From the NCBI GenBank assembly GCA_017456845.1, contig JAFTIP010000026.1, positions 1 to 43,508 on the forward strand: DNA of 43,508 nt, written 5' to 3'. The translations under genes were made by a program, and so were the position numbers. This document shows, one piece after another, positions 19,758-37,803 of the stretch. Numbering within the stretch: position 1 is the first letter of the stretch; each line of letters starts with the position of its first letter. The DNA is from Ruminococcus sp. Lineage in GTDB: Bacteria > Bacillota > Clostridia > Oscillospirales > Acutalibacteraceae. Below the pieces are notes generated by a model. The model was not told where the DNA came from and made no database searches. It saw nothing but the letters and a program-made list of their open reading frames with translations.

Positions 19758-19774
19758 AGGCACATATTAAGGTA

Positions 19775-22247: not shown

Positions 22248-22294
22248 GGAGATTCGTACCCCTAAGCAAAAACATTAATTCAGGAGGATTTAAA

Positions 22295-22867: not shown

Positions 22868-22895
22868 AAGAGGATACCGTACTTGGTATCCTCTT
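22868..22895 (-). terminator. Original host terminator of tRNA-Leu, now separated from it by the element
   Basis: On the minus strand AAGAGGATACC (22895-22885) pairs with GGTATCCTCTT (22878-22868) in an 11-bp perfect stem followed by TTTTTTG. It abuts the left att repeat. Before integration it stood directly behind the tRNA-Leu 3' end. Confidence 0.8.
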
Positions 22896-22917
22896 GGTGC
22901 GAGTGACGGGACTTGAA
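22894..22917. repeat. attL: 24-bp copy of the tRNA-Leu 3' end
   Basis: Identical to 37718-37741. It contains the 3' strand of the T-arm and acceptor stem of tRNA-Leu including CCA. The rest of the tRNA is missing at this end, as expected for the distal junction of an element integrated into a tRNA gene. Confidence 0.93.
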
Positions 22918-22925
22918 GGAGCCAA

Positions 22926-22947
22926 AAATCGCATTGTAGTGCGATTT
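22926..22947. repeat. Perfect inverted repeat next to attL
   Basis: AAATCGCA (22926-22933) and TGCGATTT (22940-22947) with a 6-base loop, 9 bases inside the left junction. It may be a site for an accessory recombination protein. Confidence 0.5.
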
Positions 22948-23023
22948 CAACGATTGTTAACTCCCAAGACTTTCATAGTCATTCGTCAAATAAATATTAC
23001 CAAAAATCAGATACCAACTCAGG

Positions 23024-23045
23024 TTTATTCCCACTTTATTCCCAA
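23024..23045. repeat. Tandem TTTATTCCCA motifs, putative integrase arm sites, left end
   Basis: Two direct copies, TTTATTCCCA-C and TTTATTCCCA-A, stand head to tail with an 11-base period. The same decamer occurs twice near the right end (37452-37461 and 37538-37547). Repeated short motifs inside both ends are typical of arm-type binding sites of tyrosine integrases with an N-terminal arm-binding domain. Confidence 0.6.
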
Positions 23046-23131
23046 TGAAAAATCTCAATCTTTATCCAAGTATACTACACTTAAATCAGTTTAGCAAGTC
23101 GTGTAAATTATCAGGGCTTTTCAAATCCTGT

Positions 23132-23154
23132 TTACTGTATTATAATTACTGTAT
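23132..23154 (+). promoter_or_regulatory. Direct repeats around the -10 box of the element's regulator gene
   Basis: TTACTGTAT at 23132-23140 and again at 23146-23154 flank a TATAAT (23141-23146), about 30 bases before the XRE gene. A weak TTTTCA lies 17 bases upstream of the -10. The placement suggests an operator for autoregulation. Confidence 0.5.
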
Positions 23155-23182
23155 GATACATTTTTAGTTAGCAGGTGAGAAA

Positions 23183-23623
23183 ATGGCTGAATTAACAGAA
23201 AAGTATGAGAACAAAATTGAAAAAGCAGAAACTTGGGAAGATATGCAAAAGGTATTGAAAGAACTGCCAAAGGTTACATTACGCCAAAGGGTTGAAGAAC
23301 TCTGTGAGAAATACAACAAGAGTTTTTCTTTAATTTGCGGATTTGCTGATATTCCCGAGTCAACCTTTTATGCAACTGTCAACGAAACAAGAACACCTAA
23401 AAAAGAGTTGATTATTAAAACAGCACTTGCCTTGGGTGCAACGATAGAAGAACTAAACGAATTGTTGAAGCTTGCAAAGCTCAAAGAACTTTATGCAAAA
23501 AATAAAGAGGATGCAATTATAATTTATGGTATGAAAAAAGGACTCGACCTTGAAGAAATTGATATGCTCCTGAAAAGCCAAAACTCAAAAATGCGTTTTT
23601 TCAAGGAGAAGGATGATGAATAG
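23183..23623 (+). CDS. XRE-type helix-turn-helix protein paired with the kinase
   Basis: The 146 residues have a charged, probably helical N-terminus (1-35). A helix-turn-helix domain follows (RQRVEELCEKYNKSFSLICGFADIPESTFYATVNETRTPKKE, then the IKTALALGATIEELNELL helix, about 35-95), with a Lys/Asp-rich tail. No signal peptide. The ATG follows GCAGGTGAG. Its stop overlaps the kinase start, so the two are coupled. It is the first gene inside the left end and a likely transcriptional switch, perhaps a kinase substrate. The second part is inference. Confidence 0.78.
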   Translation: MAELTEKYENKIEKAETWEDMQKVLKELPKVTLRQRVEELCEKYNKSFSLICGFADIPESTFYATVNETRTPKKELIIKTALALGATIEELNELLKLAKLKELYAKNKEDAIIIYGMKKGLDLEEIDMLLKSQNSKMRFFKEKDDE

Positions 23624-25316
23624 AAACGAAGAAATCAAACTGGATTTCTTTATGTCACAAATCAAACATCTTGAAGATATAAAGGAAACCGAAAAAACAA
23701 AGCTTAGTGTTGTGTTGTATGAAGCAACTCATACCACCTGTATTCTGAGGGTGTGCAAAAATCGTAATCTTTCTACTGTATGTGATGCTTTGCTTCAAGT
23801 GAAAAACCCCAATGTAGCACTGGTGTATCAATATGTTTATGCAGGTGGAAATACATACATCCTTGAAGAAATGTTAAGCGGTAAAACTATTGAGGGAATC
23901 ATCGAGGATAAAGGGCTGTTTTCGGAAAAAGAAACAGCAAAAATCATTTCAGAGGTTTGCTCAGGTTTAACGGACTTTCATAAAATGCAACCGCCTGTTA
24001 TCCATAACGACATCAACACATCCAACATAATGATTTGTGATGATAATAGAGTTAAGCTCTTTGATTTTGACATTTCACGAACATACAAAAAGGAAGCAAG
24101 TAAAAATACGGAGTTGTTCGGAACTGAGGAATATGCATCTCCCGAACACTATGGATATGGTCAGTCTGAACCCCGAACTGATATATACTCCCTCGGTGTT
24201 ACTATGCACAGGATGCTTTGCGGAGAATACCTTTCGGGTAATCGCAAGTGCCTTTACAAGGGACGAATGAAAAAGATAATTGAAAAATGTATCGAAATTG
24301 ACCCTAAAAAAAGATACACATCCGTACAGCACTTAAAAAAAGATCTTGAGAAAGTCCTGAATAGAAAAAAGACAACTATTAAGTTGATAGCATTACTCTT
24401 GGCTGTTGCTGTTCTTTTTGTTGGTGCGTATTTAGTTTTTGAGAAACACTTTAACGGGAATACTTCTTTAGCACCGCAGGATGAAACCACAAATCAAATA
24501 TCCACAGAAAATTCGGGTAGCATCGTTCCGCAGACTACAAATGTTCAGGAAAAGGAAGAACCTAAAAAGGTAGAAGTTGCCGAAAAGTTAGATGGTGAGC
24601 TTCTTTCCTTAACTTCGCTTAATAACGGAACTATGGCGTATCTGGAAAAAACATCTGATGAATATCACATTAAATCTTCATTGGGAACAGATAAAATTTT
24701 GCCGACTACTCTTGCAATAGAAGAATGTGAGCTTTTATATAACACTTACACTGATAGTCTTTATATAGTCACTACTAATAACGATAAAGGCTATATTTAT
24801 TCTCTGAGCAAGGATTTTGAGATAGACAGCAATCCCGTATACAGTGCACCTCAGTCCTATATATCAGATATTAAGGGTATGTTCTTCTCTGATGGAATGT
24901 TATATTGCAATGCATTCGGAAAAGATTTGATTGATACAGACAGATGGTGCCAAATCGGTTCGGTAAACTGTTCGCCCATTGCAGTAGCAAATGATCGGAT
25001 TTATGACATCAGCAATAACTTCTATATGCTTGATGAATTATCAGTTGATGGTGATTGCTTAAATCAATATGAAATTCCTGGGGACACTTTATTTGACAGA
25101 GTTTGTTTTGCCGATAGCAACACTTTGTATTTAACTGTAAAGAAGGATAATAAAAGCTATGTACATTCTTTTGACGGCGAGGAATTTAATGAATTTGTTT
25201 GTCTGAGCGATTATCAGCATTATACAGATTTCAAGTGTTCGGCAATGACTGTAACCCAAAACAAGATTTGGATGTATGACAGCGAAATGAATGCGATAAA
25301 GAAACTTACAATTTAA
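23616..25316 (+). CDS. Membrane Ser/Thr protein kinase-like protein with an outer beta-rich domain
   Basis: About 566 residues. The cytoplasmic kinase domain (about 1-250) has catalytic HND (VIHNDINTSNIM, near 131), a DFD in place of DFG (LFDFDIS, near 151), SPE (near 176) and YSLGVTMHRMLCGEYL. The N-lobe is unusual: no glycine-rich loop is visible and the VAIK lysine appears as Arg (CILRV). One transmembrane helix at about 257-276 precedes a Thr/Ser/Gln linker and an outer region of repeated beta-strands that may be a propeller. Two ATGs stand in tandem; 23616 has the better spacing (7) from AAGGAG. It could be active on a narrow substrate set or a pseudokinase. Confidence 0.82.
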   Translation: MNRNEEIKLDFFMSQIKHLEDIKETEKTKLSVVLYEATHTTCILRVCKNRNLSTVCDALLQVKNPNVALVYQYVYAGGNTYILEEMLSGKTIEGIIEDKGLFSEKETAKIISEVCSGLTDFHKMQPPVIHNDINTSNIMICDDNRVKLFDFDISRTYKKEASKNTELFGTEEYASPEHYGYGQSEPRTDIYSLGVTMHRMLCGEYLSGNRKCLYKGRMKKIIEKCIEIDPKKRYTSVQHLKKDLEKVLNRKKTTIKLIALLLAVAVLFVGAYLVFEKHFNGNTSLAPQDETTNQISTENSGSIVPQTTNVQEKEEPKKVEVAEKLDGELLSLTSLNNGTMAYLEKTSDEYHIKSSLGTDKILPTTLAIEECELLYNTYTDSLYIVTTNNDKGYIYSLSKDFEIDSNPVYSAPQSYISDIKGMFFSDGMLYCNAFGKDLIDTDRWCQIGSVNCSPIAVANDRIYDISNNFYMLDELSVDGDCLNQYEIPGDTLFDRVCFADSNTLYLTVKKDNKSYVHSFDGEEFNEFVCLSDYQHYTDFKCSAMTVTQNKIWMYDSEMNAIKKLTI

Positions 25317-25340
25317 TACTATTAAATACCTAAGTGTTAA

Positions 25341-25382
25341 GAGCGATTACATGCTGATTTTAGTGTGTAGTCGTTCTTTCTT
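25341..25382 (+). terminator. Terminator after the kinase gene
   Basis: GAGCGATTACA (25341-25351) pairs with TGTAGTCGTTC (25366-25376), including two G-T pairs, followed by TTTCTTTT. The remainder of the gap 25383-25560 is AT-rich and shows no supported gene. Confidence 0.75.
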
Positions 25383-25566
25383 TTATAAAAATAAGATAAA
25401 TCGTATTTTTCTACAAAATGTAGAGAACAAAGAAATGCCATCTGCTACAATAAAGATAGGCAGAAAATTTGTCATATTTTGGGAATTTTACAAGGAACAA
25501 GTCACCTGTCCTCAGACACTACGAAGTTCCGAATTGATGAATTATAATTAAGAAAGGAGATTTCAT

Positions 25567-25860
25567 ATGAGAGGTATGATAGCTATAAATACTAATAAAA
25601 TCAAAGGTGAGTACTTAAACGGTGCTTACAGCGAGCTTGCGGCACTGCTTGGCATAGATGCAGTTCTGAAACTCCACGGAAAATACCGAGGAACACAGCT
25701 TTTCTTTCCTGTTGAGCTTTTCAGTCGGGAATTTATAGTGATGCAGATTGTTGAGGAATACAATGGTCATAACATCAAGGAACTTGCCACTAAGTATGGC
25801 TATACAGAAAAATGGGTTCGTAAGATACTCAAAGACAACATAGACAAAAATTCTAACTAA
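25567..25860 (+). CDS. Mor/Martha-like transcription regulator
   Basis: A 97-residue protein whose YSELAALLGIDAVLKLHGKYRGTQLFFP segment and C-terminal helix-turn-helix (IKELATKYGYTEKWVRKILK) fit the Mor transcription activator family, known from phage Mu middle-operon control. The ATG follows AAAGGAG at good spacing. It lies 19 bases before the giant surface-protein gene and probably shares a transcript. It may control that gene or the element's replication genes. Confidence 0.75.
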   Translation: MRGMIAINTNKIKGEYLNGAYSELAALLGIDAVLKLHGKYRGTQLFFPVELFSREFIVMQIVEEYNGHNIKELATKYGYTEKWVRKILKDNIDKNSN

Positions 25861-25879
25861 AGTTTAAGAGGTGGTTTAG

Positions 25880-28800
25880 GTGGAAAACAAAAACAACAAA
25901 CAAAACGAGCCTAAAAAGAGAATTAGCAAGAAGAATATGATAATAATCTTGTTGATTATCATTATAATTATCTTGCTTCTTTTGGGGTTAGGCTTTGGTT
26001 TATCCAATAACTTTGGGAAAGGAACTATTCCAGTATCTGCTCCAGTAACTACTATTTCTGACGGCTTGTCAGCCTATGAATTAGCAGTACAAAACGGATA
26101 TGAAGGTACAGTAAAGGACTGGCTTGATTCACTTTCAGGTAAATCAGCTTATGAAATAGCAGTTGAAAACGGTTACGATGGAACAGAGAATGAATGGCTT
26201 GATACGCTTAAAGCAAAATCAGGGCAGGATGGAGTAGGTATTAAGACTGCTTCCTTTTCTTCAAAAGGTGAGCTTTTAATCACTCTTTCCGATGATAGTG
26301 TAATTAATCTTGGTGTTGCAGTTGGAAGTGACGGTGCTGACGGCAAAGATGGAGCTGACGGTACTAATGGCAAAGACGGCGTAGACGGCAAAGATGGTAC
26401 AAACGGAACTGATGGTAAGGATGGCACGAATGGTACCAACGGCAAGGATGGAAAAGATGGTACCGATGGTGTGAGTATTTCTTCTGCAAGCATTAATGAT
26501 GACGGACAATTAGTGATCAGTTTTTCTGATGGTAAGAGTGTCAATTTGGATAAAGTTGTTGGTATGAATGGTATCGACGGAATAAGTGTAATCAAATCCG
26601 AAATTAACGAGAACGGAGAATTAGTACTTACATATTCCAATAATCAGGTTGCCAATCTCGGCGTTGTAATTGGAGCTAATGGAAAAGACGGTATTGACGG
26701 TAAAGATGGTACCGATGGTTCAGATGGAGCTAACGGCATAGATGGTGTTGATGGTATTGATGGCATAAGCATCACAAAGAGCGAAGTTAATTCATCGGGA
26801 GAATTAGTTATTACATATTCTGATGGAACAACCGATAATTTAGGTGTGATTATTGGCGTTGATGGTAAAGATGGCACTGACGGAATGGATGGCGAAGATG
26901 GTCAGGATGGTGCTGATGGCGTTAGCGTAATTAATGCTGAAATTAATTCTAAGGGTGAGTTAGTCCTCACATACTCCAATAATGAAACTGCTAATCTCGG
27001 CGTAGTTATAGGTGCAAACGGCAAAGATGGTGCAGATGGTAAGGACGGAGTTAATGGTAAAGATGGAACAGACGGTACCAACGGTATTAATGGTACTGAC
27101 GGAAAAGACGGCATTGATGGTAAAGATGGAATCAGTGTAGTCAAATCTGAAATCAACCCATCTGGCGAACTTATATTAACATACTCCAATGGAAATATCG
27201 ACAATTTGGGATTGGTAGTTGGTACCAACGGAAAAGACGGCACTAACGGTTCAGATGGTAAGGATGGTACTAACGGCATAAATGGTAAAGATGGTGTAGA
27301 CGGCGTTGGCATCAAAACTATCGTAATCAATGAAAATGATGAACTTGAAATCTCTCTTTCAAATGGAACACAGTTAAACCTTGGCTGTATCAAAGGTTCT
27401 GACGGTAAAGATGGCGTTAATGGAAAAGATGGCGTAGATGGTAAAGACGGCATTGACGGTGTTAATGGTACAAATGGCAAGGATGGTAAAGACGGTATCG
27501 GAATAACCAAGACAGAAATCAACACTGACGGAGAGCTTATTATTACATATTCAGATGATACTACTAAAAATCTCGGAATTGTTGTTGGTGCTAATGGTAC
27601 TAACGGCGTTGATGGTGAAGATGGTGTAGGTATCACAAAAATTGAAATCAATGACAATGGAGAACTTGTAATCAATTATTCTGATGATACATCTTCTGTT
27701 CTTGGCGTGATTGTTGGTAAAGACGGAACTAATGGTATTGACGGAACTGACGGCAAAGATGGAGTCGGTGTTGCAAAGACAGAAATAAATGATAATGGCG
27801 AGCTTATAATCACCTACTCCAACGAAACATCTGTTAATCTTGGTGCTGTTGTAGGTCTTAACGGAAAAGATGGTACCGATGGAATAGACGGTATTGATGG
27901 CGTAGATGGTACGGATGGTATAGGAATCACAAAGACTGAAATTAACGAAAACGGTGAACTTGTGATTTCTTATTCTGACAATACAACATCTAATCTTGGC
28001 ATAATCGTAGGTAAAGATGGTGCTGACGGTAAAGATGGAATTGATGGAACAAATGGTGTTAATGGTAATGATGGTAAAGATGGCATCGGTGTTGCCAAAA
28101 CCGAAATCAATGATAAAGGCGAACTTGTCATTACTTACTCAAACAACACTTCGGTTACTCTTGGTACGGTTGTCGGTCTTAACGGCAAAGACGGTATTGA
28201 TGGTGATGATGGTATAGATGGCTCTGATGGAATAGGAATTGCCAAAACTGAAATTAATGATAAAGGTGAATTAGTAATAACCTATTCTGACAATACTACA
28301 TCCAACCTTGGTATAATCATAGGTAAAGATGGTGCTGACGGTAAAAATGGAAATGATGGAAAAGACGGAAAAGATGGTGTTGACGGTAAAAACGGACAGG
28401 ATGGAATCGGAATATCAAATGTTTCTATTAATACCAACGGCGAATTAGTTCTTACATTCTCTGATGATTCATCAATTAACCTTGGTTGTATTGTTGGCGA
28501 GGATGGAACAGACGGAACTGATGGTAAAGATGGCAATAATGGCAAAGATGGAGAAAATGGAAAAGATGGTCTTGACGGCAAGGATGGTGCTGATGGCATA
28601 GGTATCATAAAAACCGAAATTAATGACAATGGCGAATTGGTAATTACATATTCCGATAACACTACCGAGAATCTTGGTATAGTAGTTGGCTCAAACGGTG
28701 CCGACGGAGTTAATGGTACAAACGGAGAGAATGGCGTAGATGGTGCTAACGGTAAAGATGGCATTGGTATAATCAAATCTGAAATCAATGCAAATGGTGA

Positions 28801-30895
28801 ACTTGTTATTACCTATTCTGATAACACCACAGATAACCTCGGTTTAGTAGTTGGTGCTGATGGAAAAGACGGTGTTGACGGCATTAACGGAACAGATGGT
28901 AAGGATGGTGCCGACGGCAAAGACGGAGAAAACGGAAAAGATGGTCAAGACGGCAAAGATGGCACAGGAATAGAAACAGTCAACATATCAGAAAACGGAA
29001 TTTTAACTGTTTTACTTACCAACGGAACCTCATTGAATCTTGGTAACATTAAAGGTGCTGACGGTGTCGGTGTTACATCATCTGTGATAAACACTGATGG
29101 AGAATTGGTGCTTACTTATTCAAACGGCAACAGTACTAACTTAGGTAGAGTTGTTGGCAAAGATGGTGTAAACGGTACTAACGGTAAAGATTGTACAAAT
29201 GGTAAAGACGGAGCAGACGGAAAGAATGGTGCGGATGGTATTGGTATTGATAATGTAACAATATCTGACGACGGAATTCTTACGGTAGTACTCACTAACG
29301 GTACAAGCCTTAATCTTGGCAGTATCAAAGGTGTTGATGGTAAAGACGGAACAAGTATTACTTCTGCAATTATCAACGAGTCAGGAGAATTCGTATTAAG
29401 CTATTCTGACGGCAAGTCAACGAATCTCGGAAGGATTATCGGATCTGACGGCTCAGACGGTGTCGGTATAAGCAATGTACTAATTTCAACTGATGGAGTA
29501 TTAACAGTTGAGCTTACAAACGGCACATGCATTAACCTTGGCAACATAAAAGGCACTAATGGTATTGATGGTAAGGATGGCATAAGTGTTACATCTGCTG
29601 TTATAAATAATTCAGGAGAACTTGTACTGACCTACTCGGATGGTAATTCCACAAACCTTGGCAAAGTTGTAGGTGCTGATGGCAAAGACGGAGAAAATGG
29701 AGCAAATGGTACCAATGGTGCAAACGGTAAAGATGGTGTTGGTATTGATACTGTAATATTATCTGATAGCGGAGAGCTCTCTGTTAAGTTAAGCAACGGC
29801 GTTACTTTGGAACTCGGAAATATTCAAGGTGCTGACGGTGTTAGTGTTACATCATCAACAATTAACTCAAATGGAGAGTTAGTGCTTTCGTATTCCAATG
29901 GTGAAAGAACAATTGTTGGAAAAGTAGTAGGTAATGATGGTGAAGACGGTACAGATGGTGTAGGTATTGAAACTATTACTCTTTCTGCAGAAGGTAATTT
30001 AACAGTAACTCTTACTAACTCTCAAACTTTAAACCTTGGTAATGTTAAGGGCAACAAAGGTGATAAGGGAGATAAAGGTGACAAGGGCGATACTGGCATT
30101 GGTATTTCAGATATGGAAATCGTAAACGGTGAACTTGTTATCACGTACACTAATGGCGAAACAGACAATCTGGGAACAATAGTAAGTAGTTCCGATGTGT
30201 CATCATCAGGATTGGATTTCTATCCTCTTTCGGATGGTACTTATGGTGTGAAAAGTGGAAGGTGTAAATATTTAGATGAAATCATTATACCTGAAACTTA
30301 TAACGGAGCAAAAGTAACACAGATATTGGATTCAGGATTCTCAGATTGTGAGAACCTTACATCAATTTCGATTCCGTCAGGGATAACAACGATCGAAAAA
30401 GATGCATTCCTTAACACTAACAATATTACTACAGTTAAGTATTACGGAACAGTTGCAGATTGGTGTGCTATTTCATTCGCTAACTATGAATCAAGTCCTT
30501 TTTATAGATACGGTGCCGACTTGTATATCAATGATGAGCTTGTAACTACTCTCACTGTTCCCGAAGGTGTAACTGAAATAGGAAGTTATGCATTTTATAG
30601 TTGTTTATCAATTAAAGAAATCAATCTGAGCAGTACTGTAACAACAATCGGGAAATATGCATTTGCTGATTGCCCTTATGTTAAACGACTTGATATTCCT
30701 AACTCTGTTAAATATATCGGCACAGGATCAATTTTTAACTCTGGTATAAATTATGTGCGTTTTGAAAATACAACTGGATGGAAACGTAAGTATGATTCAA
30801 CAGGACAAAATGTAGATAGTGGGACAAAAACATTTGTAAATGGAAGTAGTGCTGCATCAGATTTAAAAAGATCTGATATGTATTATGTTAGATAA
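25880..30895 (+). CDS. Giant surface protein: collagen-like repeats, 26 beta modules, BspA-type leucine-rich repeats
   Basis: 1671 residues. A Lys-rich cytoplasmic N-terminus is followed by one hydrophobic helix (about 20-41), suggesting an N-in membrane anchor. Two copies of a SAYELAVQNGYEGT-type helix follow (about 64-113). From about 118 to 1435 come 26 beta modules of about 30 residues, of the kind EINDNGELVITYSDN then TxNLG, alternating with Gly-X-Y runs rich in GKDGTDG. A late run reads GDKGDKGDKGDTG. The C-terminal 220 residues hold BspA-type leucine-rich repeats (IPSGITTIEKDAF, IGSYAFYSCLSIKEI). There is no LPxTG motif. The start is GTG, with AGAGGTGG before it. Probably an adhesin or fibre on the cell surface. 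Confidence 0.9.
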   Translation: MENKNNKQNEPKKRISKKNMIIILLIIIIIILLLLGLGFGLSNNFGKGTIPVSAPVTTISDGLSAYELAVQNGYEGTVKDWLDSLSGKSAYEIAVENGYDGTENEWLDTLKAKSGQDGVGIKTASFSSKGELLITLSDDSVINLGVAVGSDGADGKDGADGTNGKDGVDGKDGTNGTDGKDGTNGTNGKDGKDGTDGVSISSASINDDGQLVISFSDGKSVNLDKVVGMNGIDGISVIKSEINENGELVLTYSNNQVANLGVVIGANGKDGIDGKDGTDGSDGANGIDGVDGIDGISITKSEVNSSGELVITYSDGTTDNLGVIIGVDGKDGTDGMDGEDGQDGADGVSVINAEINSKGELVLTYSNNETANLGVVIGANGKDGADGKDGVNGKDGTDGTNGINGTDGKDGIDGKDGISVVKSEINPSGELILTYSNGNIDNLGLVVGTNGKDGTNGSDGKDGTNGINGKDGVDGVGIKTIVINENDELEISLSNGTQLNLGCIKGSDGKDGVNGKDGVDGKDGIDGVNGTNGKDGKDGIGITKTEINTDGELIITYSDDTTKNLGIVVGANGTNGVDGEDGVGITKIEINDNGELVINYSDDTSSVLGVIVGKDGTNGIDGTDGKDGVGVAKTEINDNGELIITYSNETSVNLGAVVGLNGKDGTDGIDGIDGVDGTDGIGITKTEINENGELVISYSDNTTSNLGIIVGKDGADGKDGIDGTNGVNGNDGKDGIGVAKTEINDKGELVITYSNNTSVTLGTVVGLNGKDGIDGDDGIDGSDGIGIAKTEINDKGELVITYSDNTTSNLGIIIGKDGADGKNGNDGKDGKDGVDGKNGQDGIGISNVSINTNGELVLTFSDDSSINLGCIVGEDGTDGTDGKDGNNGKDGENGKDGLDGKDGADGIGIIKTEINDNGELVITYSDNTTENLGIVVGSNGADGVNGTNGENGVDGANGKDGIGIIKSEINANGELVITYSDNTTDNLGLVVGADGKDGVDGINGTDGKDGADGKDGENGKDGQDGKDGTGIETVNISENGILTVLLTNGTSLNLGNIKGADGVGVTSSVINTDGELVLTYSNGNSTNLGRVVGKDGVNGTNGKDCTNGKDGADGKNGADGIGIDNVTISDDGILTVVLTNGTSLNLGSIKGVDGKDGTSITSAIINESGEFVLSYSDGKSTNLGRIIGSDGSDGVGISNVLISTDGVLTVELTNGTCINLGNIKGTNGIDGKDGISVTSAVINNSGELVLTYSDGNSTNLGKVVGADGKDGENGANGTNGANGKDGVGIDTVILSDSGELSVKLSNGVTLELGNIQGADGVSVTSSTINSNGELVLSYSNGERTIVGKVVGNDGEDGTDGVGIETITLSAEGNLTVTLTNSQTLNLGNVKGNKGDKGDKGDKGDTGIGISDMEIVNGELVITYTNGETDNLGTIVSSSDVSSSGLDFYPLSDGTYGVKSGRCKYLDEIIIPETYNGAKVTQILDSGFSDCENLTSISIPSGITTIEKDAFLNTNNITTVKYYGTVADWCAISFANYESSPFYRYGADLYINDELVTTLTVPEGVTEIGSYAFYSCLSIKEINLSSTVTTIGKYAFADCPYVKRLDIPNSVKYIGTGSIFNSGINYVRFENTTGWKRKYDSTGQNVDSGTKTFVNGSSAASDLKRSDMYYVR
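26230..30170 (+). repeat. Internal tandem repeat region of the collagen-like gene
   Basis: Imperfect 9-base units encoding G-K/T/V-D alternate with about 90-base units encoding the beta module. Codon-level divergence is high between copies, but modules such as 27960-28020 and 28240-28320 are very close. Such arrays are prone to slippage and recombination, so length variation between strains is expected. They also cause misleading long antisense frames. Confidence 0.85.
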
Positions 30896-30903
30896 ATAGA
30901 ATT

Positions 30904-30940
30904 AACTCCTCATTTGTTTAATGACAGATGAGGAGTTTTT
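30904..30940 (+). terminator. Terminator after the collagen-like gene
   Basis: AACTCCTCAT (30904-30913) pairs with ATGAGGAGTT (30928-30937), followed by TTT. It stands only 23 bases before the DUF960 gene. Confidence 0.8.
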
Positions 30941-30962
30941 ATATATTCAAGGAGGTGAGTAT

Positions 30963-31235
30963 ATGCGGTGCGTTAGTTCTAATTTGTCGAATCGTATTCC
31001 CGAGGAAATTCAGCTTATGATGTGGTATATGGTTGATATGATGGATGAGGACAAAGATTGGTTGCAAACATTCAATCTGACTGTCAAAAACGGAGTACAG
31101 CATATCAAACATCATCAGGAAGAACCTGAATTCAGAGAGGAGTGTGTATTGCTTACAAATAATCCAGTAGAAGAAAAAGTTTATATTATTTTAGAGCCAG
31201 GATTATCAACAATGATACTGGCAGAAGATTATTAA
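30963..31235 (+). CDS. DUF960 family protein
   Basis: The 90 residues (NRIPEEIQLMMWYMVDMMDEDKDWLQTFNLTV...HHQEEPEF...PVEEKVYIILEPGLSTMILAEDY) match the DUF960 pattern known from Firmicutes plasmids, phages and conjugative elements; function unknown. The ATG at 30963 follows AAGGAGGTGA. The in-frame ATG at 30921 lies inside the terminator and is rejected. It starts a tightly packed cassette of short genes. Confidence 0.75.
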   Translation: MRCVSSNLSNRIPEEIQLMMWYMVDMMDEDKDWLQTFNLTVKNGVQHIKHHQEEPEFREECVLLTNNPVEEKVYIILEPGLSTMILAEDY

Positions 31236-31242
31236 TGAAAGG

Positions 31243-31335
31243 ATGATTATTATCAAATATTTTATGATTGGATTTTTCGGAACTTTAGCAGTATTATGCT
31301 TGCTTAATAAAACTAAGAAGGGGGCTAAAGAATGA
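31243..31335 (+). CDS. Tiny predicted membrane peptide (30 aa)
   Basis: MIIIKYFMIGFFGTLAVLCLL followed by a Lys-rich tail: one hydrophobic helix and a positive end. GAAAGG stands directly upstream. Its stop overlaps the next start (ATGA), and it follows DUF960 by 7 bases, so it fits the cassette. Too short for a family call. Confidence 0.5.
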   Translation: MIIIKYFMIGFFGTLAVLCLLNKTKKGAKE

Positions 31336-31448
31336 TTATGGCTTTAACTGTGTCAACAGTATCAGTAACTTGCCTTTTGGAAGGTGCTATGTGTGCAATA
31401 GCTTTGTTTTGTACAGGCAAAAAGCCACATAAGGGGTTACTGAAATGA
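31332..31448 (+). CDS. Tiny predicted membrane peptide (38 aa)
   Basis: One hydrophobic segment (ALTVSTVSVTCLLEGAMCAIALFC) and a Lys-rich tail, the same topology as the preceding peptide. It overlaps both neighbours by 4 bases (ATGA at 31332 and at 31445), which argues that it is translated. Unknown function. Confidence 0.5.
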   Translation: MIMALTVSTVSVTCLLEGAMCAIALFCTGKKPHKGLLK

Positions 31449-31789
31449 TTAAGATTGCCTGTAAAGATGATCTGGATTTAATTGCAGATGTTTGTATTAA
31501 AAAGCACATTGAGAATCAACTAAATTATCTGCTTAATACATATAAATATGAATGCTCCGAAGGTTCTATTGAATCCATCGGAGCGATTTTTTATGTAGAA
31601 AGCTCATCTGATTTTTATGATTATACTCAATTTGGATTATCGTCACCTATAAATGAAGAAAGATTTGAGTATATTGAGCAAATAGCAGGTGGTTATTGTA
31701 GAAGTCTTATAGCTCTAAATAATGAAAATGTTATTGAGATTATAGGCAAAAAAGATGTTTTTGACTCAATAATGGAAGGAGAACTTTAA
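31445..31789 (+). CDS. Hypothetical element protein (114 aa)
   Basis: Soluble, acidic, with several Cys and Tyr; starts MIKIACKDDLDLIADVC. No family recognised. Coupled by ATGA overlap to the peptide upstream, and its stop abuts the TTG start of the DUF1643 gene. Confidence 0.6.
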   Translation: MIKIACKDDLDLIADVCIKKHIENQLNYLLNTYKYECSEGSIESIGAIFYVESSSDFYDYTQFGLSSPINEERFEYIEQIAGGYCRSLIALNNENVIEIIGKKDVFDSIMEGEL

Positions 31790-32398
31790 TTGAAAAATTA
31801 TAAATCAATAGTAGAAACTGAAATTGTAACATCCGATGACGGGTTACAAACATACGAGCTAACAAAAAGATTAGTTGGTTGCGAGGGTGAGTGCGGATAT
31901 CTAATTTCACTTTACCCTACACGAACAGCGGAAAATATTTTCTCTAACGACTCCACCCTCAACCACCTTGTTTCTCACATGCAGGAGTTAGGATTTAGCG
32001 AGCTTCATATTGTTAATCTGTTTTCAAAAGCTGTAACAAGTCAGCGAGGATTAACTATTGATGAAGAAAATATGCAGTATATCGAAAAACTAATTAATAG
32101 CAAGGAGTTTTCTAATTCAAAGTTTGTAATTGCTTGGGGCAATTCAATGCAGAATTCTCAAGCTGTTTCAGATTCCAAAGTGCGTATTTTCAATATGTTT
32201 TTGAAGCATTGTTCCAAAGGTAAGCTCTACCAGATTACAACTATGGATAGAAATATTGAACCTACTCCTGCTCCCCATCCTCTATTTCTCGGAATTCGTG
32301 CAAGTAGTTCTGTTTGGGGGTTGCAAGAATTTAAAATTAAAAAGCCAAGTCAAGCCATCATCGGTAAAGCTAAATCAAATAGCACAAAAGCCAAATAA
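31790..32398 (+). CDS. DUF1643 family protein
   Basis: A 202-residue product. The segments YLISLYPT, STLNHLVSHMQELGFSELHIVNLFSKAVTS, FVIAWGNSM and APHPLFLGI follow the DUF1643 pattern (a compact domain with NLF, AWG and HPLYL motifs) found on bacteria, phages and plasmids; biochemical function unknown. The start is TTG immediately after the upstream stop, with AAGGAGAA 8-16 bases before it. It closes the short-gene cassette that begins at 30963. Confidence 0.7.
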   Translation: MKNYKSIVETEIVTSDDGLQTYELTKRLVGCEGECGYLISLYPTRTAENIFSNDSTLNHLVSHMQELGFSELHIVNLFSKAVTSQRGLTIDEENMQYIEKLINSKEFSNSKFVIAWGNSMQNSQAVSDSKVRIFNMFLKHCSKGKLYQITTMDRNIEPTPAPHPLFLGIRASSSVWGLQEFKIKKPSQAIIGKAKSNSTKAK

Positions 32399-32490
32399 AG
32401 CATAACCCAAAGTTTATTGTTCAGCTCACTCAAAAGAATTCTACAAATTGTAAAACTCTATTCTAAAACTAAAGTGTATACTATAAACAG

Positions 32491-32505
32491 CATCAATCAT
32501 TGATG
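32491..32505. promoter_or_regulatory. Palindrome upstream of small paralogue A
   Basis: CATCAAT-C-ATTGATG is a perfect 7-bp inverted repeat, 28 bases before the ATG at 32533 and just downstream of a TATACT-like box (32477-32482). A candidate operator. Confidence 0.45.
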
Positions 32506-32532
32506 TAAAAAAATTTGAAAGGAGATTTTATA

Positions 32533-32988
32533 ATGAATCTCAAAGTTGAAAAAATTAAAATGTTGGACTATTTTGGAGGTGCTTCTGAATTTTTAATGCT
32601 TTGTGCAAACCACGTAGCATATCAAGAAGAAAAAGACACTAAAACGCCTATGAAAATCGACTGTATTACATCCGAAGGATTAACCACGGGTATAGTTCGT
32701 TCAATGTGTGTATTCGAAAATAAGAATTGCATTGATATTATTATCCACGGTGAACGCTGCTGTATTGAGCTGTCAGATGAAATCTATGAAAGCTTAGTAG
32801 AACTTCAGCATAATATGCTTGAATCCGAAAGCGAATACAGCAAAGACGATATTTTATCATTCAAATTTATCAACGGCAAAATGTTCTTTGTACAGGTTGA
32901 AGAAGGAATGGTAATTGAATTTAAACCCATTGATTATAAAAAGTTTGAGGAAGCTTTACCCTTATTCGAAAAACTGATGGAAAACTAA
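32533..32988 (+). CDS. Element protein, paralogue A of the helicase-flanking pair
   Basis: A 151-residue acidic soluble protein. It shares a plan with the gene at 34866-35336: an N-terminal DYFGG motif with a hydrophobic helix, a central strand pair (CIDIIIHGERCCIELSDE against CYVDVIINEERYLLKLSNEE) and a C-terminal IDYKKFEEALPLFEKLMEN helix against IDYDKYKEVLELIPEF. No known family. The ATG at 32533 follows AAAGGAG. A longer TTG-started frame is less likely. Probably part of the replication module. Confidence 0.7.
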   Translation: MNLKVEKIKMLDYFGGASEFLMLCANHVAYQEEKDTKTPMKIDCITSEGLTTGIVRSMCVFENKNCIDIIIHGERCCIELSDEIYESLVELQHNMLESESEYSKDDILSFKFINGKMFFVQVEEGMVIEFKPIDYKKFEEALPLFEKLMEN

Positions 32989-33016
32989 AAAGAAAATAAA
33001 TAACACAGATGAAAAG

Positions 33017-33058
33017 CCGACAACATTCTCTTGATAGGGAGTGTTGTCGGTATTTTTG
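33017..33058 (+). terminator. Terminator after paralogue A
   Basis: CCGACAACA (33017-33025) pairs with TGTTGTCGG (33042-33050), followed by TATTTTTGTTT. Confidence 0.85.
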
Positions 33059-33397
33059 TTTCGTTAGATTATTTTTTTGATGAATATTTGGAAAATCTTA
33101 CATAATGATATAATTGAGATTTGTCGAATTATCAAATATGAAAATCTAATTGTGTAACATTAAGTAAATATTTGATGAATTTGAGCATATATTAGTAGTA
33201 AGGAAATTTCTTACAATTCCAAATAGCGGATTTATATTACAACGTTGGGGTCTGCTATTTGTTTTATATATACCTTGGGTGGTCAGGGTGGTAAGTGTTT
33301 TGAAAAATAAAGCGTTTGATTTCGTTTTCTCCTTCGTGTTTTTATTTTCACACCCCACCTTTACCACCTGACAAAAATGGTGTTTAAGGAGGCTATA
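33059..33397. other. Gene-free, repeat-rich region before the helicase gene (candidate origin or leader)
   Basis: 339 bases with no supported gene. A promoter-like TTTGGA (33087-33092), 16-base spacer and TATAAT (33109-33114) is present. TTTGATGAAT followed by A/T-TTTG occurs at about 33077 and again at about 33173. AATAGC/GCTATT arms enclose 33224-33261. A long-range pairing joins GTCAGG..TGGTAA near 33283-33295 to TTACCACCTGAC near 33360-33371. Direct repeats plus secondary structure before an SF3 helicase gene fit an element origin. This is inference. Confidence 0.4.
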
Positions 33398-34795
33398 ATG
33401 GAATCCCATATAGTAGAAATTAAAATTAGAGACTATATCAAATCTGATTTTCAGGAAGTTTCAAAAGATGCAACATCAGAAGAAAAAGAACTGTATTTGA
33501 AAAGAATTGGCTTTGAGCAACATCCCAAAGGCGGCTATGAATTTTACTGTAATACTTTTGCTAGATTCTTTCTGAAAAATACTGATGTGGTATCGCTATC
33601 TAATGAAGAAGAACTCGCTTTGTATAATCAGAAAAAAGGAGTGTATGAACTAAAGTGTGAACAAAAGCTTGGAAAGATTATTAAATTTATGATGAATCAG
33701 GTGCTTGATTTATGGATGCCCAGTCATGAACAGTTAGCCTTGAAAGCGATTCGCAGGGATGTGAGTCGGATCGCTACCGCTTTCAATAATGGTGAGTACA
33801 TCAACTTGCAAGACGGTATATTAAATCTTGATGACTTTGAACTGTATGAACACTCCCCAGAATTTTTAAGTACTGTACAGTTACCATTCAAATACAACGA
33901 TAGGATGTATACTCCTGTATTCGAGAAATATATTGCTGATATAGTCTGTGGTAATTATGAACTAGAACATGTACTGCAGGAATTGCTTGGGTATTGTTTA
34001 TGTACCAGCACTGTAGCTGAAAAAGCATTTTTCTTAGTAGGCGGAGGCTGTAACGGAAAAAGCGTCTTTGCAAAGCTGATTCAAATGCTCGTAGGTGAGG
34101 GTAATTATTCTAATACGAGTTTGTCAGCACTAAGCGGAACTTTTGGATTGGCTCAGCTCATAAATTCCAATGTTAATATTTCGGCAGAAAACTCAAGCGG
34201 AAAGGTCAACTCAGAAATTTTCAAGGCAGTTGTAAGTGGTGATACTTGTGAAGTTAATCGCAAATATAAGGATGCTTTGAGTGTAAAGTTACACACTAAA
34301 TTGGTGCTTCTTTTCAACACTTTGCCTGAATGTGATGATTTATCATACGGCTTCTTTAGAAAAATACTTATAATTCCATTTAATAAGACTATTACAAAAG
34401 AAAACATAGATGTAGAACTGATTGATAAACTTGAGCATGAATTGTCTGGCATTTTCCATTGGGCACTAAAAGGTTTACAGCGACTTAGAAAGAATAATTT
34501 TGTGTTTTCTCAATGTGCAGCATGTAAGAGAGAACTTGATAAATACAAAAGGTCACTTAATCCTGTCGCTGAATACATTGTATTCAACCTTAACCTCAAA
34601 AGCGAAAACTCTATGAAAAGAAGCGATATTTACAAAGCTTATACCAAGTATTGTTATGACAATTCTGTTGAGGTTTTACAATGTCAGAAGTTTTGGAAAC
34701 TATACAAGGCGTATTATATCGATAGAGGTATTCCCTTTGTAACATGCAAAATTAAAGGTTATGAATATGTACGAGGCGTCGAATTCGCCAAATAA
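33398..34795 (+). CDS. P4/D5-type superfamily 3 helicase (phage/plasmid primase C-terminal type)
   Basis: ATPase that unwinds DNA at the origin of phages, plasmids and satellites. The 465 residues include a D5 N-terminal region (from about 120), Walker A GGGCNGKS (in FFLVGGGCNGKSVFAKL, about residue 218), the NVNISAENSSGKVNSE Walker B-like region, KLVLLFNTLPE sensor and FFRKILIIPF arginine segment. An N-terminal primase domain is not evident, since only about 120 residues precede the D5 region. The ATG at 33398 follows AAGGAGG. It should drive autonomous replication of the excised element. Confidence 0.85.
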   Translation: MESHIVEIKIRDYIKSDFQEVSKDATSEEKELYLKRIGFEQHPKGGYEFYCNTFARFFLKNTDVVSLSNEEELALYNQKKGVYELKCEQKLGKIIKFMMNQVLDLWMPSHEQLALKAIRRDVSRIATAFNNGEYINLQDGILNLDDFELYEHSPEFLSTVQLPFKYNDRMYTPVFEKYIADIVCGNYELEHVLQELLGYCLCTSTVAEKAFFLVGGGCNGKSVFAKLIQMLVGEGNYSNTSLSALSGTFGLAQLINSNVNISAENSSGKVNSEIFKAVVSGDTCEVNRKYKDALSVKLHTKLVLLFNTLPECDDLSYGFFRKILIIPFNKTITKENIDVELIDKLEHELSGIFHWALKGLQRLRKNNFVFSQCAACKRELDKYKRSLNPVAEYIVFNLNLKSENSMKRSDIYKAYTKYCYDNSVEVLQCQKFWKLYKAYYIDRGIPFVTCKIKGYEYVRGVEFAK

Positions 34796-34800
34796 AAATC

Positions 34801-34832
34801 ACCCTTCTGCCAATTTAGGGTGGAAGGGTGTG
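34801..34832 (+). promoter_or_regulatory. Hairpin between helicase and paralogue B
   Basis: CACCCTTC pairs with GAAGGGTG in a perfect 8-bp stem with a loop of about 15 bases, directly behind the helicase stop and about 35 bases before the next ATG. There is no T-run, so a translational or processing role is likelier than termination. Confidence 0.45.
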
Positions 34833-34865
34833 AACAAAACAAAAACTAAAAGGAGTAATTTTAAT

Positions 34866-35336
34866 ATGAACGAATTTTCAAAAAATCAATTAATTAAGTT
34901 TGAGTACTTCGGTGGAATGGAAAATCTAATTGGCTTATATAAGAGCTATCGTAAATTTATGAAAGAAAAATTATGTATGTTTAATACCGAAAAAAATAAT
35001 TATGGTAAATTAACAGATGTCACAATGGACGGAACATCGTTAGCTGTTATCATCACAGCAACTATGAGCGATAATTTGTGTTATGTTGATGTTATTATCA
35101 ACGAAGAAAGATATTTACTTAAACTTTCCAATGAGGAATTAAAGAGTGTTTTGACAGGCTTGGTAGAGCCCATAGATGATGTTGACGAAGCCCTGAAATT
35201 GCTTTTCGGTCAACCGTATTTTATGTCTGTTGAAAATGGTTTTGCTAAAAACATGAAAATTATTGATTACGATAAATACAAAGAAGTACTCGAACTAATA
35301 CCCGAATTTATCCAAAATAATAAGGAGGTACAATAA
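34866..35336 (+). CDS. Element protein, paralogue B of the helicase-flanking pair
   Basis: A 156-residue protein starting MNEFSKNQLIKFEYFGG. It matches paralogue A in domain order and key segments (YFGG, VDVIINEERYLLKLSNEE, the NGFAKNMKIIDYDKYKEVLELIPEF tail in parts). It lies immediately downstream of the helicase, as paralogue A lies upstream. Unknown fold. The ATG at 34866 follows AAAGGAG; a longer frame to 34761 overlaps the helicase and is rejected. Confidence 0.72.
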   Translation: MNEFSKNQLIKFEYFGGMENLIGLYKSYRKFMKEKLCMFNTEKNNYGKLTDVTMDGTSLAVIITATMSDNLCYVDVIINEERYLLKLSNEELKSVLTGLVEPIDDVDEALKLLFGQPYFMSVENGFAKNMKIIDYDKYKEVLELIPEFIQNNKEVQ

Positions 35337-35338
35337 TT

Positions 35339-36169
35339 ATGCCTATACCAAAGAGAAAAGAAGGTATAAATACAAATCCTTCAACCAGACCTGACTTATG
35401 TGATGAGGATTTAGATTTAAGCATACTGGATGAACTTGACGAAAGTAATGAACTAAGCTCAATTGTAAATGACACCAACAAAGATGATGATGGTGCTGAT
35501 GTAAGTACTCAAACAGTAACTGAAACAAATGTATCTGTAAATGCTGAAATGGAAGAAAATAAGATTGATGAAAGTGTCCCAGAAAAAAGCGAGCCTAACG
35601 AACCACAACCTGTTACCAAACCGCAAAGTAGCAATAATGTATATAATTTTTGCGGTTATAGAATCACCTCGTTAACAGAAAAAGATGCTGAGATTGTAAG
35701 AAGGTATAGATTCAACGAGGAAAACATCAGTAATTATTGTTTGGCTAAAAATACATTTTTTGACTATATTCAAGGTAATGGTGAGGATTTTGTATTCAAA
35801 AAAGAGTGGGGATTTCCATATAGCGGAAGCTACATCGGCTACATTATGAATTGTTCGCCGAGCATGAAACATTGTGGCGAATATTATATTGCGTTTCTAG
35901 CTGATAATTACGATGTTTGTTTATTCAAGTTTACTACAACATTCAGAGATGCAGTTTATAATGGTGTTCAACGTGATTTGGGTTTGACGAGTACTATTTT
36001 CAGACAAGCAGATTATTCTTGTTTAAAAGGATATTTAGTTCTGATATCGGTAGATAATATTACTCTTGAAAGCGGAAATGTATTTTCAAAAATTACTGAG
36101 TTCAAAATCGTAGATGAAAGAATGACAGAAGTCATCGAAAAACTAATTGATGATATGTCAAGACAGTAA
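35339..36169 (+). CDS. Element protein with acidic disordered N-terminus (276 aa)
   Basis: Residues 1-100 are rich in Asp, Glu, Asn, Ser and Pro and probably unstructured. Residues 100-276 form a globular domain starting VYNFCGYRITSLTEKDAEIVRRYRF, with many aromatics and four to five Cys. No family recognised. AAGGAGG precedes the ATG by 9-10 bases, and the stop of paralogue B is 2 bases upstream. The layout resembles a single-stranded-DNA-binding or adaptor protein with a flexible tail, but nothing proves this. Confidence 0.62.
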   Translation: MPIPKRKEGINTNPSTRPDLCDEDLDLSILDELDESNELSSIVNDTNKDDDGADVSTQTVTETNVSVNAEMEENKIDESVPEKSEPNEPQPVTKPQSSNNVYNFCGYRITSLTEKDAEIVRRYRFNEENISNYCLAKNTFFDYIQGNGEDFVFKKEWGFPYSGSYIGYIMNCSPSMKHCGEYYIAFLADNYDVCLFKFTTTFRDAVYNGVQRDLGLTSTIFRQADYSCLKGYLVLISVDNITLESGNVFSKITEFKIVDERMTEVIEKLIDDMSRQ

Positions 36170-36175
36170 AATTCA

Positions 36176-36196
36176 GGGGCAGGGTTTCTCTGCCCC
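36176..36196 (+). terminator. Hairpin between the acidic protein and the integrase
   Basis: GGGGCAG (36176-36182) pairs with CTGCCCC (36190-36196) with a 7-base loop. GC-rich stem without a T-run, so termination is possible but weak. Confidence 0.4.
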
Positions 36197-36245
36197 GATA
36201 TGCTATAAAGCAATAAATAATGATATATTATTCTCTAGAAAGGAG

Positions 36246-37433
36246 ATGGTAGCTATATCCAGTATCAGAAAAGTGAAAAATAAAACTGGTACCCACTATC
36301 AAGTGAGTTATGAACTTCCTCGTTATATTGATGGCAAACGAAGAAGAACTACAAAAACTTTTCCAGATGGAACAACCTTGGCAGAAGTAAAGAGATTCTT
36401 AGCTGAAAAGGAATTGGAATATTCAAGAGGTTCATCGCTAAGCCACGATTACAATTTAACCTTCGGAGAGTTTGCCGATGTGTATTTTTCTACCTATACG
36501 CAATTTCTTAGCCCTACAACACTCAAAGGCTACAAGTCGGCATATTACAACTCGAAGCCCTATGGCTTGCAAAATTACTTTAGAGATGCGAGATTACGCA
36601 AAATTTCACCAAGAAATATTCAGGAATATATTAATTTTCTCTGTTCCCACGTAAGTCCTAAATCAACAAAAAATTACTTAATGCTTCTTAATGTTATTTT
36701 TGCTCTTGCAGTTCAGGAAAATATCATTCAAAGAGAAGCCAATCCTATGTTATACAAAATTCAAAAACCTCGTCAACACAAGAAACCTGTCGAAGCATAC
36801 AATTTGGATGAATTCAACTTGATGTTAAAACTTGCTGATGAAGATGAAAATCCTGATATAAAACTTATAATATATCTTGGATTGCTGTCAGGTATCAGAC
36901 GTGGAGAGATGGCAGGATTACAATGGTCTGACGTGAATTTTGATGAGGGTTATATTTACATCTCTAAAAGTCGTGTGGTAGTTGAGAAAGAGGAATATAT
37001 AAAAGAGCCTAAAACAGAATCAGGTATCCGTAAAATCTTCATTCCAGAAAAACTATTAAATGTACTTAAAGAATACAAACACAGATACTTGTTGAATAAG
37101 CTTAAATACGGCAAAGATTTTATTGACAGCAATTATGTTATCAGTAAAGAAAATGGTGAGGCTTTTAGTCCGAGTGGAATATCAAATAACTATCAGCGAT
37201 TTATGAAAAGGCATAAAGATAAGATTCGTTACCTGAAATTTCACGGACTCAGACATACCTACGCAAGTGTACTGATTGAAAATGGAGAGAACCCCAAGAC
37301 CGTACAGCACAACCTCGGTCATGCAGATGTAGCTTTGACCTTGCAAATCTACTCGCATTCATACGAATCTGCACAACGTAATGCTGCTAAGAAACTTGAT
37401 GAAACCATTAATTTAACTTCAAAAACAGGATAA
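36246..37433 (+). CDS. int: Tyrosine site-specific integrase
   Basis: Catalyses insertion and excision at the tRNA-Leu 3' end. The roughly 395 residues comprise an N-terminal arm-binding domain (KNKTGTHYQVSYELPRYIDGKRRRTTKTF), a core-binding SAM-like domain (TFGEFADVYFSTYTQFLSPTTLKGY) and a catalytic domain. The active site is complete: Arg in SGIRRGE, Lys in the PKTESGIRKIFIP hairpin, HGLRH, LGH and the Tyr of LQIYSHS. The ATG at 36246 abuts AAGGAG with no spacer, which is poor; no ATG, GTG or TTG lies closer to ideal. Translation may be weak by design. It is 284 bases from attR. Confidence 0.93.
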   Translation: MVAISSIRKVKNKTGTHYQVSYELPRYIDGKRRRTTKTFPDGTTLAEVKRFLAEKELEYSRGSSLSHDYNLTFGEFADVYFSTYTQFLSPTTLKGYKSAYYNSKPYGLQNYFRDARLRKISPRNIQEYINFLCSHVSPKSTKNYLMLLNVIFALAVQENIIQREANPMLYKIQKPRQHKKPVEAYNLDEFNLMLKLADEDENPDIKLIIYLGLLSGIRRGEMAGLQWSDVNFDEGYIYISKSRVVVEKEEYIKEPKTESGIRKIFIPEKLLNVLKEYKHRYLLNKLKYGKDFIDSNYVISKENGEAFSPSGISNNYQRFMKRHKDKIRYLKFHGLRHTYASVLIENGENPKTVQHNLGHADVALTLQIYSHSYESAQRNAAKKLDETINLTSKTG

Positions 37434-37451
37434 TCATTATTTTTACGGCAA

Positions 37452-37547
37452 TTTATTCCCATATATCATATAAACACGCTGAAATGCAGTAGTAATGGGA
37501 GGTTCGGGGATTCTAGATAGTTCCCGAAAGTACCCGTTTTATTCCCA
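37452..37547. repeat. TTTATTCCCA motifs near the right end, putative integrase arm sites
   Basis: Copies at 37452-37461 and 37538-37547, in the same orientation as the tandem pair at 23024-23044. The segment between them also holds a short inverted repeat around GGGAGGTTCGGGG and a TTCCCGAAAG. Confidence 0.55.
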
Positions 37548-37622
37548 AATGGCGAATAATCGTTTGAACAGGGAAGTACTGGCGAAAAGCTGAAAGTGAA
37601 TAAAACGGAACATACAAAAACA

Positions 37623-37660
37623 CCGCAACCTCAGATGAATACTGAAGTTGCGGTTGTTTT
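37623..37660 (+). terminator. Terminator after the integrase gene
   Basis: CCGCAAC plus TCA (37623-37633) pairs with TGA plus GTTGCGG (37643-37653), with one mismatch, followed by TTGTTTTTTG. Confidence 0.75.
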
Positions 37661-37689
37661 TTGCCTTGGTAAGTCCTGCTGAAAAAGAA

Positions 37690-37719
37690 AAAAGCTATCA
37701 ACCGAAGTTGATAGCTTTT
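37690..37719 (-). terminator. Element-borne terminator placed behind tRNA-Leu
   Basis: 13-bp perfect stem, AAAAGCTATCAAC (37690-37702) with GTTGATAGCTTTT (37707-37719). On the minus strand the loop is C(TTCG)G, the extra-stable UUCG tetraloop, and TTTTTTCTTTTTC follows. It substitutes for the original terminator now at 22868-22895. Confidence 0.88.
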
Positions 37720-37741
37720 GGTGCGAGTGACGGGACTTGAA
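37718..37741. repeat. attR: 24-bp repeat within the intact tRNA-Leu
   Basis: Identical to 22894-22917. This copy completes the functional tRNA-Leu, so integration did not destroy the gene. Confidence 0.93.
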
Positions 37742-37803
37742 CCCGTACGCGTCTCCACACACGCCCCTCAAACGTGCCTGTCTGCCTATTCCAGCACACT
37801 CGC
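37719..37803 (-). tRNA. tRNA-Leu(GAG)
   Basis: Class II tRNA with encoded CCA. Acceptor GCGAGTG (37803-37797) pairs with CACTCGC. The anticodon arm is CACGT-TTGAGGG-GCGTG, giving anticodon GAG. A long variable arm and the T-loop GTTCAAGTC follow. It is the integration target of the element. Confidence 0.95.

Follow-up and report, generated by a model that had tools for sequence, protein, structure and literature searches.

Staphylococcal cassette chromosome (SCC) elements spread methicillin resistance, and we know of no settled account of how they pass between cells. According to the relevant passages of one study (PMC7581432), the conserved open reading frames (ORFs) of SCC include DUF960, DUF1643 and a Cch2-type helicase. 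The same set is found in a 14.8-kb element of Ruminococcus sp., at positions 22894-37741 of the window, the whole 43,508-nt stretch analysed here (contig JAFTIP010000026.1, assembly GCA_017456845.1; all coordinates refer to it), where the element lies between two identical 24-bp copies of the tRNA-Leu(GAG) 3' end. We suggest that it is probably a cassette of the SCC kind with two cargo slots, its predicted backbone being made up of DUF960, DUF1643, a Cch2-like helicase and a single-stranded DNA-binding (SSB)-like protein with an oligonucleotide-binding (OB) fold. As in SCC, a Cch/Cch2 helicase is present and DUF960 and DUF1643 lie near the recombinase and helicase genes, but there is neither a Ccr-type recombinase nor an rlmH site; since the recombinase and site tests of SCC thus fail, the element is best called an SCC-like cassette with an exchanged recombinase. 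An initial annotation of this DNA had known of no named class with its gene set, a view which has to be revised for the three ORFs conserved in SCC and which stands to the extent that the match to a named class is partial.

The 12 listed genes of the element all lie on the + strand, in the order CI-like helix-turn-helix (HTH) regulator, membrane kinase, Mor-like activator, collagen-like/leucine-rich repeat (LRR) surface protein, DUF960, o114, DUF1643, paralogue A, P4-type helicase, paralogue B, o276 and tyrosine integrase. The borders, backbone and recombinase are as follows (G044 being the genome of another species of the genus):

22894..22917, + strand: attL, a 24-bp copy of the tRNA-Leu 3' end, same letters as 37718-37741; the G044 alignment starts at 22876
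30921..31235, + strand: DUF960 protein (PF06124, 9e-19)
31790..32398, + strand: DUF1643 protein (PF07799, 1.5e-10)
33377..34795, + strand: Cch2-like superfamily 3 (SF3) helicase, 472 aa (TIGR01613 primase_Cterm 7.8e-56, D5_N, DUF5906)
35339..36169, + strand: o276, predicted OB-fold ssDNA-binding-like protein (structure model)
36246..37433, + strand: tyrosine integrase, ORF open from 36147 (Phage_integrase 6.7e-24, SAM-like N-domain)
37718..37741, + strand: attR, tRNA-Leu 3' end, identical to attL over 24 bp
37719..37803, - strand: intact tRNA-Leu(gag), the integration target

The repeat at both limits, the complete integrase beside the intact tRNA and the SF3 helicase had all been reported in the initial annotation and were recovered, as were its two regulators, membrane kinase, 5-kb surface-protein gene and related paralogues A and B, described below. 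Judged from its domain type, the predicted helicase is Cch2-like; Walker A is retained in the alignment, and no primase domain was matched in Pfam or NCBIfam. The integrase start at 36246 is placed from the homologue in a further genome of the genus, G037 (72% identity in the alignment), and the catalytic residues were read by eye. Pfam was run on 12/12 proteins, PHROGs on 10 (all save the kinase and surface protein) and NCBIfam on 10 (all save o114 and the surface protein). In agreement with the initial annotation, these scans gave no family match for capsid, terminase, portal, tail, relaxase, coupling ATPase or excisionase, ORFs shorter than 97 aa (e.g. 25351-25551) lying outside them. Pfam matched no resolvase among the 12 proteins and no polymerase among the element proteins; of the polymerase/SSB partner of SCC (CCPol with MP, or LP1413), o276 with its OB-like model is the SSB-like candidate.

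The likeness to SCC (SCCmec patterns 1 and 2), as set out in parts of PMC7581432 and PMC10581047, covers DUF960 together with DUF1643, a Cch2-like primase_Cterm helicase without a fused primase, an SSB-like candidate (o276), the absence of transfer genes and the variability of the cargo. A Mor-like activator, a kinase and a collagen-like cargo are additions of the window element. Eight distant loci, retrieved with o276 and o114 profiles, carry much of the same backbone with another recombinase: large serine recombinase in 8/8, DUF1643 in 7/8, Cch-like Rep in 6/8, Mor in 6/8, DUF960 in 4/8 and o276 in 2/8, counts which include self matches (the recombinases of G238 and G548, the Rep of G238, and DUF1643 and one o276 query of G548). 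Pfam recovered the serine recombinase in 3/3 loci tested, DUF927 with 'Cch helix turn helix' in 2/2 Cch-like Reps and DUF1643 in 1/1, and the stretches of the eight loci hold no tyrosine integrase of the window type. G548 has its serine recombinase right after Rep and o276, the place taken by the tyrosine integrase in the window. The latter is carried by the window element, G044, G037, G113 (as a fragment) and an element in IMG/VR, with tRNA-Leu as the target.

Several observations weigh against a place among SCC-type cassettes. The window has a tyrosine integrase at tRNA-Leu, whereas SCC has a Ccr serine recombinase at rlmH; neither CCPol nor DUF950/SAUGI gave a recognisable match in the element proteins; and the order DUF950-DUF960-DUF1643 seen after ccrB in a staphylococcal cassette contrasts with DUF960 and DUF1643 placed before the helicase and recombinase, a difference that lowers our confidence slightly. 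The window helicase is unlike the DUF927-type Reps of six distant loci, the G548 Rep being without a Pfam match, and the G210 stretch has neither DUF1643 nor a Cch-like Rep. Neither DUF family is exclusive to SCC, DUF960 also matching Lactococcus lactis (1/14 control genomes) and DUF1643 being mentioned in published papers for Stenotrophomonas phages. Finally, the o276 model is OB-like, with a VIA Z of at most 6.4 (chains ranked by Foldseek), below the safe level for a fold match. As the helicase differs from the distant Reps, exchange may extend to the replication module. The present combination may have arisen through exchange of the recombinase or through independent assembly of the backbone with a tyrosine integrase.

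Other described islands share parts of this pattern. SCC-like islands of other Bacillota, including those at ssrA of C. difficile and C. perfringens, have a COG3378 or DUF927 helicase, an SSB partner, conflict genes and tandem insertion (PMC10061031, in the parts concerned). They differ in that the table entries of that paper name large serine recombinases, the word 'tyrosine' being absent from its main text, and in that those islands carry an A-family polymerase; its authors note there DUF ORFs without SCC synteny. The Enterococcus cassette chromosome (ECC), from another host group, has DUF960 and DUF927 genes according to the relevant part of PMC6222049. The McRImecD islands of Macrococcus resemble the window element in their tyrosine integrase at the 3' end of the conserved gene rpsI, lack of transfer genes and circular excision, but are stated to be unrelated to SCC, and the words DUF and helicase are absent from the main text of that report (PMC5341023). 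Our searches of the open-licence literature showed no SCC-like element with a tyrosine recombinase. Such a cassette in gut commensals would provide a comparative handle on which SCC genes are true core and which are exchangeable.

Mobility of the element is indicated by close copies and an empty site, the window genome and its close relatives being draft assemblies. At ≥70% aa identity the integrase is present in at least 4 of 161 genus genomes among the matches listed: its own, G044, G037 (71%) and G113 (a 110-aa stretch, 98%, at a contig end). In G044 the same element occupies this tRNA; its integrase is identical, the flanks are unrelated, and the alignment covers window 22876-37805, ending within ~20 bp of the repeat and of the tRNA end, beyond which the flanks do not align. 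In 250-bp bins, identity reaches 99-100% over approximately 5 kb of the left part and 3 kb of the right part, although a 643-aa chromosomal protein is only 57% identical between the two hosts. Judged from these identities, this is a very recent transfer between two species. In G110 the left neighbourhood and the right tRNA pair to ~38153 are kept and the element is absent, so that an empty tRNA-Leu site, the lack of which had been raised in the initial annotation, does exist; it was found via synteny from the tRNA search, a search for the neighbouring 2-hydroxyacid dehydrogenase having given no information. Because the G044 borders match the repeat and tRNA, and because G110 has the site without the element, the arrangement is more than chance, and predicted integration at tRNA-Leu is supported in that two or more hosts carry the element there. 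Neither a second att copy (≤2 substitutions) nor a related integrase was found 3' of tRNA-Leu in 9/9 clade loci, over stretches of 0.9-14 kb.

These data bear on two other explanations. The element could be a decayed prophage remnant, immobile and stripped of structural genes, in keeping with its phage-type integrase and regulators and with the scars and tandem remnants at the same tRNA in relatives. We find this hardly credible, as both the integrase and the helicase have uninterrupted reading frames and retain conserved motifs, the two near-identical stretches recur in another species with different flanks, the backbone is conserved across genera and the arm sites are retained. It could also be an integrative mobilisable element with an unrecognised oriT, on which the conjugation apparatus of an integrative and conjugative element (ICE) or plasmid in the same cell would act in trans. 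The very recent transfer between species and the absence of any relaxase or packaging gene found would agree with this, and so would the occurrence of the helicase family on plasmids (85/432 matching records predicted mobilizable; in tblastn of phages and plasmids with the helicase, all records were <60% identical). Relaxase and type IV secretion system (T4SS) components nevertheless had no match in the scanned proteins, and we consider mobilisation quite unlikely.

Further sites lie near the element ends:

23024-23033 and 23035-23044, + strand: two putative arm-type sites TTTATTCCCA, exact matches
37452-37461 and 37538-37547, + strand: two putative arm-type sites TTTATTCCCA, exact matches
37690..37719, + strand: hairpin, 13-nt perfect inverted repeat

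Four exact copies of TTTATTCCCA are present in the 43.5-kb window vs 0.25 expected, two near each element end and none elsewhere, and the same four are present in G044. As would be expected from these end positions, they may be arm-type sites of a lambda-type integrase. They are unevenly kept in relatives, with one exact copy in the IMG/VR locus, one in G113 and, in G037, a single reversed copy outside the att core. The hairpin would stand in for the tRNA-Leu terminator.

We propose that control of the element would lie with the CI-like regulator and the Mor-like activator, which may in turn be governed by the kinase. The integrase would bind core and arm sites and excise it as a circle, a step that would require a directionality factor. 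The helicase, aided by o276 and host polymerase, would then replicate the circle, by analogy with SCC biochemistry, no convincing iterons of the SCC-origin type being seen around the helicase. Entry into new cells would follow a route not encoded on the element, perhaps most likely phage-mediated transfer, after which the element would integrate at tRNA-Leu.

A number of further features were seen around these tRNA sites. A stretch of approximately 3.1 kb to the left of attL (window 19757-22864) is absent from the syntenic G110 locus and may represent an older insertion, or a remnant of one, at this tRNA; within it lie a gene resembling 2-hydroxyacid dehydrogenase and, at 22295, an ORF whose only match is a weak one to HTH_36. 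In G044, 180 bp of the element right end recur to the left of attL (82%), together with a DUF1643 fragment (L019 9133-9707); both appear to be the remnant of an earlier related insertion at this tRNA, and the neighbouring cluster (L019 57-8503) resembles a type VII secretion locus, with an FtsK/EssC-like ATPase and WXG100-like small proteins (inspection only). In G037 (L021 11050-12416) the att core has a reversed orientation with respect to the integrase, and the related element would accordingly lie the opposite way round at the tRNA; the contig stops before the far end. The empty site of G110 (L082 14006-14243) has a partial att copy and hairpins, resembling scars of past insertions.

The two predicted cargo slots are:

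25880..30895, + strand: slot 1, predicted membrane-anchored collagen-like stalk with BspA-type LRR tip, 1671 aa (Collagen 4.1e-49, LRR_5 1.3e-28)
30178..30895, + strand: variable tip-coding region, from the window vs G044 comparison
37452..37547, + strand: slot 2, between integrase and attR, empty in the window element

In the stalk, 182 G-X-Y triplets fall into 21 runs, and an N-terminal membrane segment was read by eye. At the tip, 114/269 aligned residues (42%) are identical between window and G044, and DNA identity falls to 56-63% in three 250-bp bins (30126-30875). It is 93-100% to the left; just to the right it is 75% and then 85-97% up to ~32375, with 97% at the DUF960 end, ~85% around o114 and ≥95% from ~31.9 kb. 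The divergence peaks at the tip and tapers unevenly, for which recombination with another cassette would be the simplest cause. The content of slot 1 (Mor to DUF960) varies among relatives: the window and G044 have the collagen-like stalk, the IMG/VR element another ORF ahead of DUF960, G548 an AMP-binding/acyltransferase protein together with others, and further loci membrane-type proteins (by inspection). Slot 2 holds a 252-aa protein without family matches in the IMG/VR element and a TIR gene in G113 (spbK model 3.3e-72; Pfam TIR_2 8.2e-6, just under the cut-off), and its predicted content is defence-type (SpbK-like TIR) in one relative.

The helicase scan of IMG/VR found no relative there; the integrase and o114 profile scans both led to the same two contigs. 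On 3300031555_010910 the order is tRNA-Arg, tRNA-Leu(GAG), a prophage, an att copy and the right half of a cassette running to the contig end, and the second record is identical over the 16.85 kb compared. The prophage, apparently full-length, carries an integrase of its own and, judged by inspection, ORFs resembling lysin, tail, portal and terminase genes. The initial annotation had considered a full-length prophage that includes the cassette block; this contig holds two tandem elements with separate integrases and an att copy between them. Identity of the cassette to that of the window is 58.7% for the helicase, 96.7% for o276 and 95.6% for the integrase, paralogue A having no match, a pattern which is that of another putative module exchange. 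Since prophage and cassette share the attachment site, joint excision or hitchhiking might be possible, although this is speculation.

The tandem is also relevant to a reading as a phage satellite resembling phage-inducible chromosomal islands (PICI) and Staphylococcus aureus pathogenicity islands (SaPI): a helper phage would induce the element, its helicase would copy it and the capsids of the helper would take it up via a cos/pac site, with no packaging gene of its own. The window element is like them in size class (14.8 kb), tyrosine integrase and CI-like regulator, its Mor-like regulator belongs to a phage late activator family, and its helicase is related (1.9e-25) to the PDB sequence of chain 7ola, 'DNA primase', a SaPI rep. 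An apparently full-length prophage does share its tRNA-Leu site with a neighbouring relative of the element. However, the layout given in the pertinent part of PMC6092414 is not reproduced: there is no divergent regulator pair (12/12 genes on the + strand) and the integrase stands at the far end of a one-direction array. Moreover, xis, primase, terS and packaging genes had no match in the scanned proteins, and the backbone is common to serine-recombinase cassettes. Because no divergent regulator pair, excisionase or primase was found, the satellite reading is weakened, and we regard it as unlikely. The earlier proposal of a satellite-like or minimal mobilisable element with surface-protein cargo holds as regards a mobile, tRNA-bounded element with the surface protein as its main cargo, its satellite part having lost ground.

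Returning to the SCC-like cassette, we lean towards a broader view in which SCC-type cassettes are not defined by serine recombinases. Backbone and tyrosine integrase would together form a tRNA-targeting lineage in gut Clostridia that passes a long collagen-like stalk, its tip exchangeable, from one species to another; where such a cassette is inserted next to a prophage at one tRNA, it could also travel in phage particles. A large adhesin-like surface protein would then move as cassette cargo with its tip exchanged, and the prophage at the same site makes phage-mediated transfer of the cassette directly testable.

The remaining genes of the element are:

23183..23623, + strand: CI-like HTH regulator, 146 aa (Phage_CI_repr, E 0.0011, below the curated Pfam cut-off)
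23613..25316, + strand: membrane Ser/Thr kinase, 567 aa (Pkinase 3.3e-32), 11-bp overlap with the regulator gene
25567..25860, + strand: Mor-like transcription activator, 97 aa (Mor 8.4e-11; phrog_532 late activator 4.4e-12)
31445..31789, + strand: o114, acidic, 114 aa, pI 4.27, between DUF960 and DUF1643
32515..32988, + strand: paralogue A, 157 aa (25% identity to paralogue B, E 3e-13)
34761..35336, + strand: paralogue B, 191 aa (91% aa homologue in the IMG/VR element)

The Mor-like protein is 71% identical (aa) to its G238 homologue. The kinase has HND for HRD, DFD for DFG and a membrane segment (read by eye). PADLOC, run on 10/12 element proteins, matched it to kinase-containing models and paralogue A to one weak model (E 0.0068). 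A search of 161 genus genomes with paralogue B gave matches in its own genome and G044 only.

The o114 family comprises 12 sequences, and no known family or fold was matched by Pfam, PDB sequence or structure model searches. As a candidate for DUF950/SAUGI, the uracil-DNA glycosylase inhibitor of SCC, it had no SAUGI match in Pfam or PDB sequence searches, and the structure model, of low confidence (mean pLDDT 64.6), has a helix-rich topology that would differ from the Ugi fold. The published ESI-type motif is found at the aligned position in 4/12 sequences (window, G044, IMG/VR and G037); position, acidity and this motif would fit a SAUGI-type protein, and no other feature does.

Two of the distant loci carry further genes close to the backbone. 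In the G238 cassette (L098 8617-13008) a 1463-aa protein near o276, with metallophosphatase and NACHT/STAND-like matches, is a candidate defence gene, and in G328 (L120 6427-8802) two genes upstream of the cassette backbone have strong PADLOC matches (DolB 5e-133, NsnA 1e-37).

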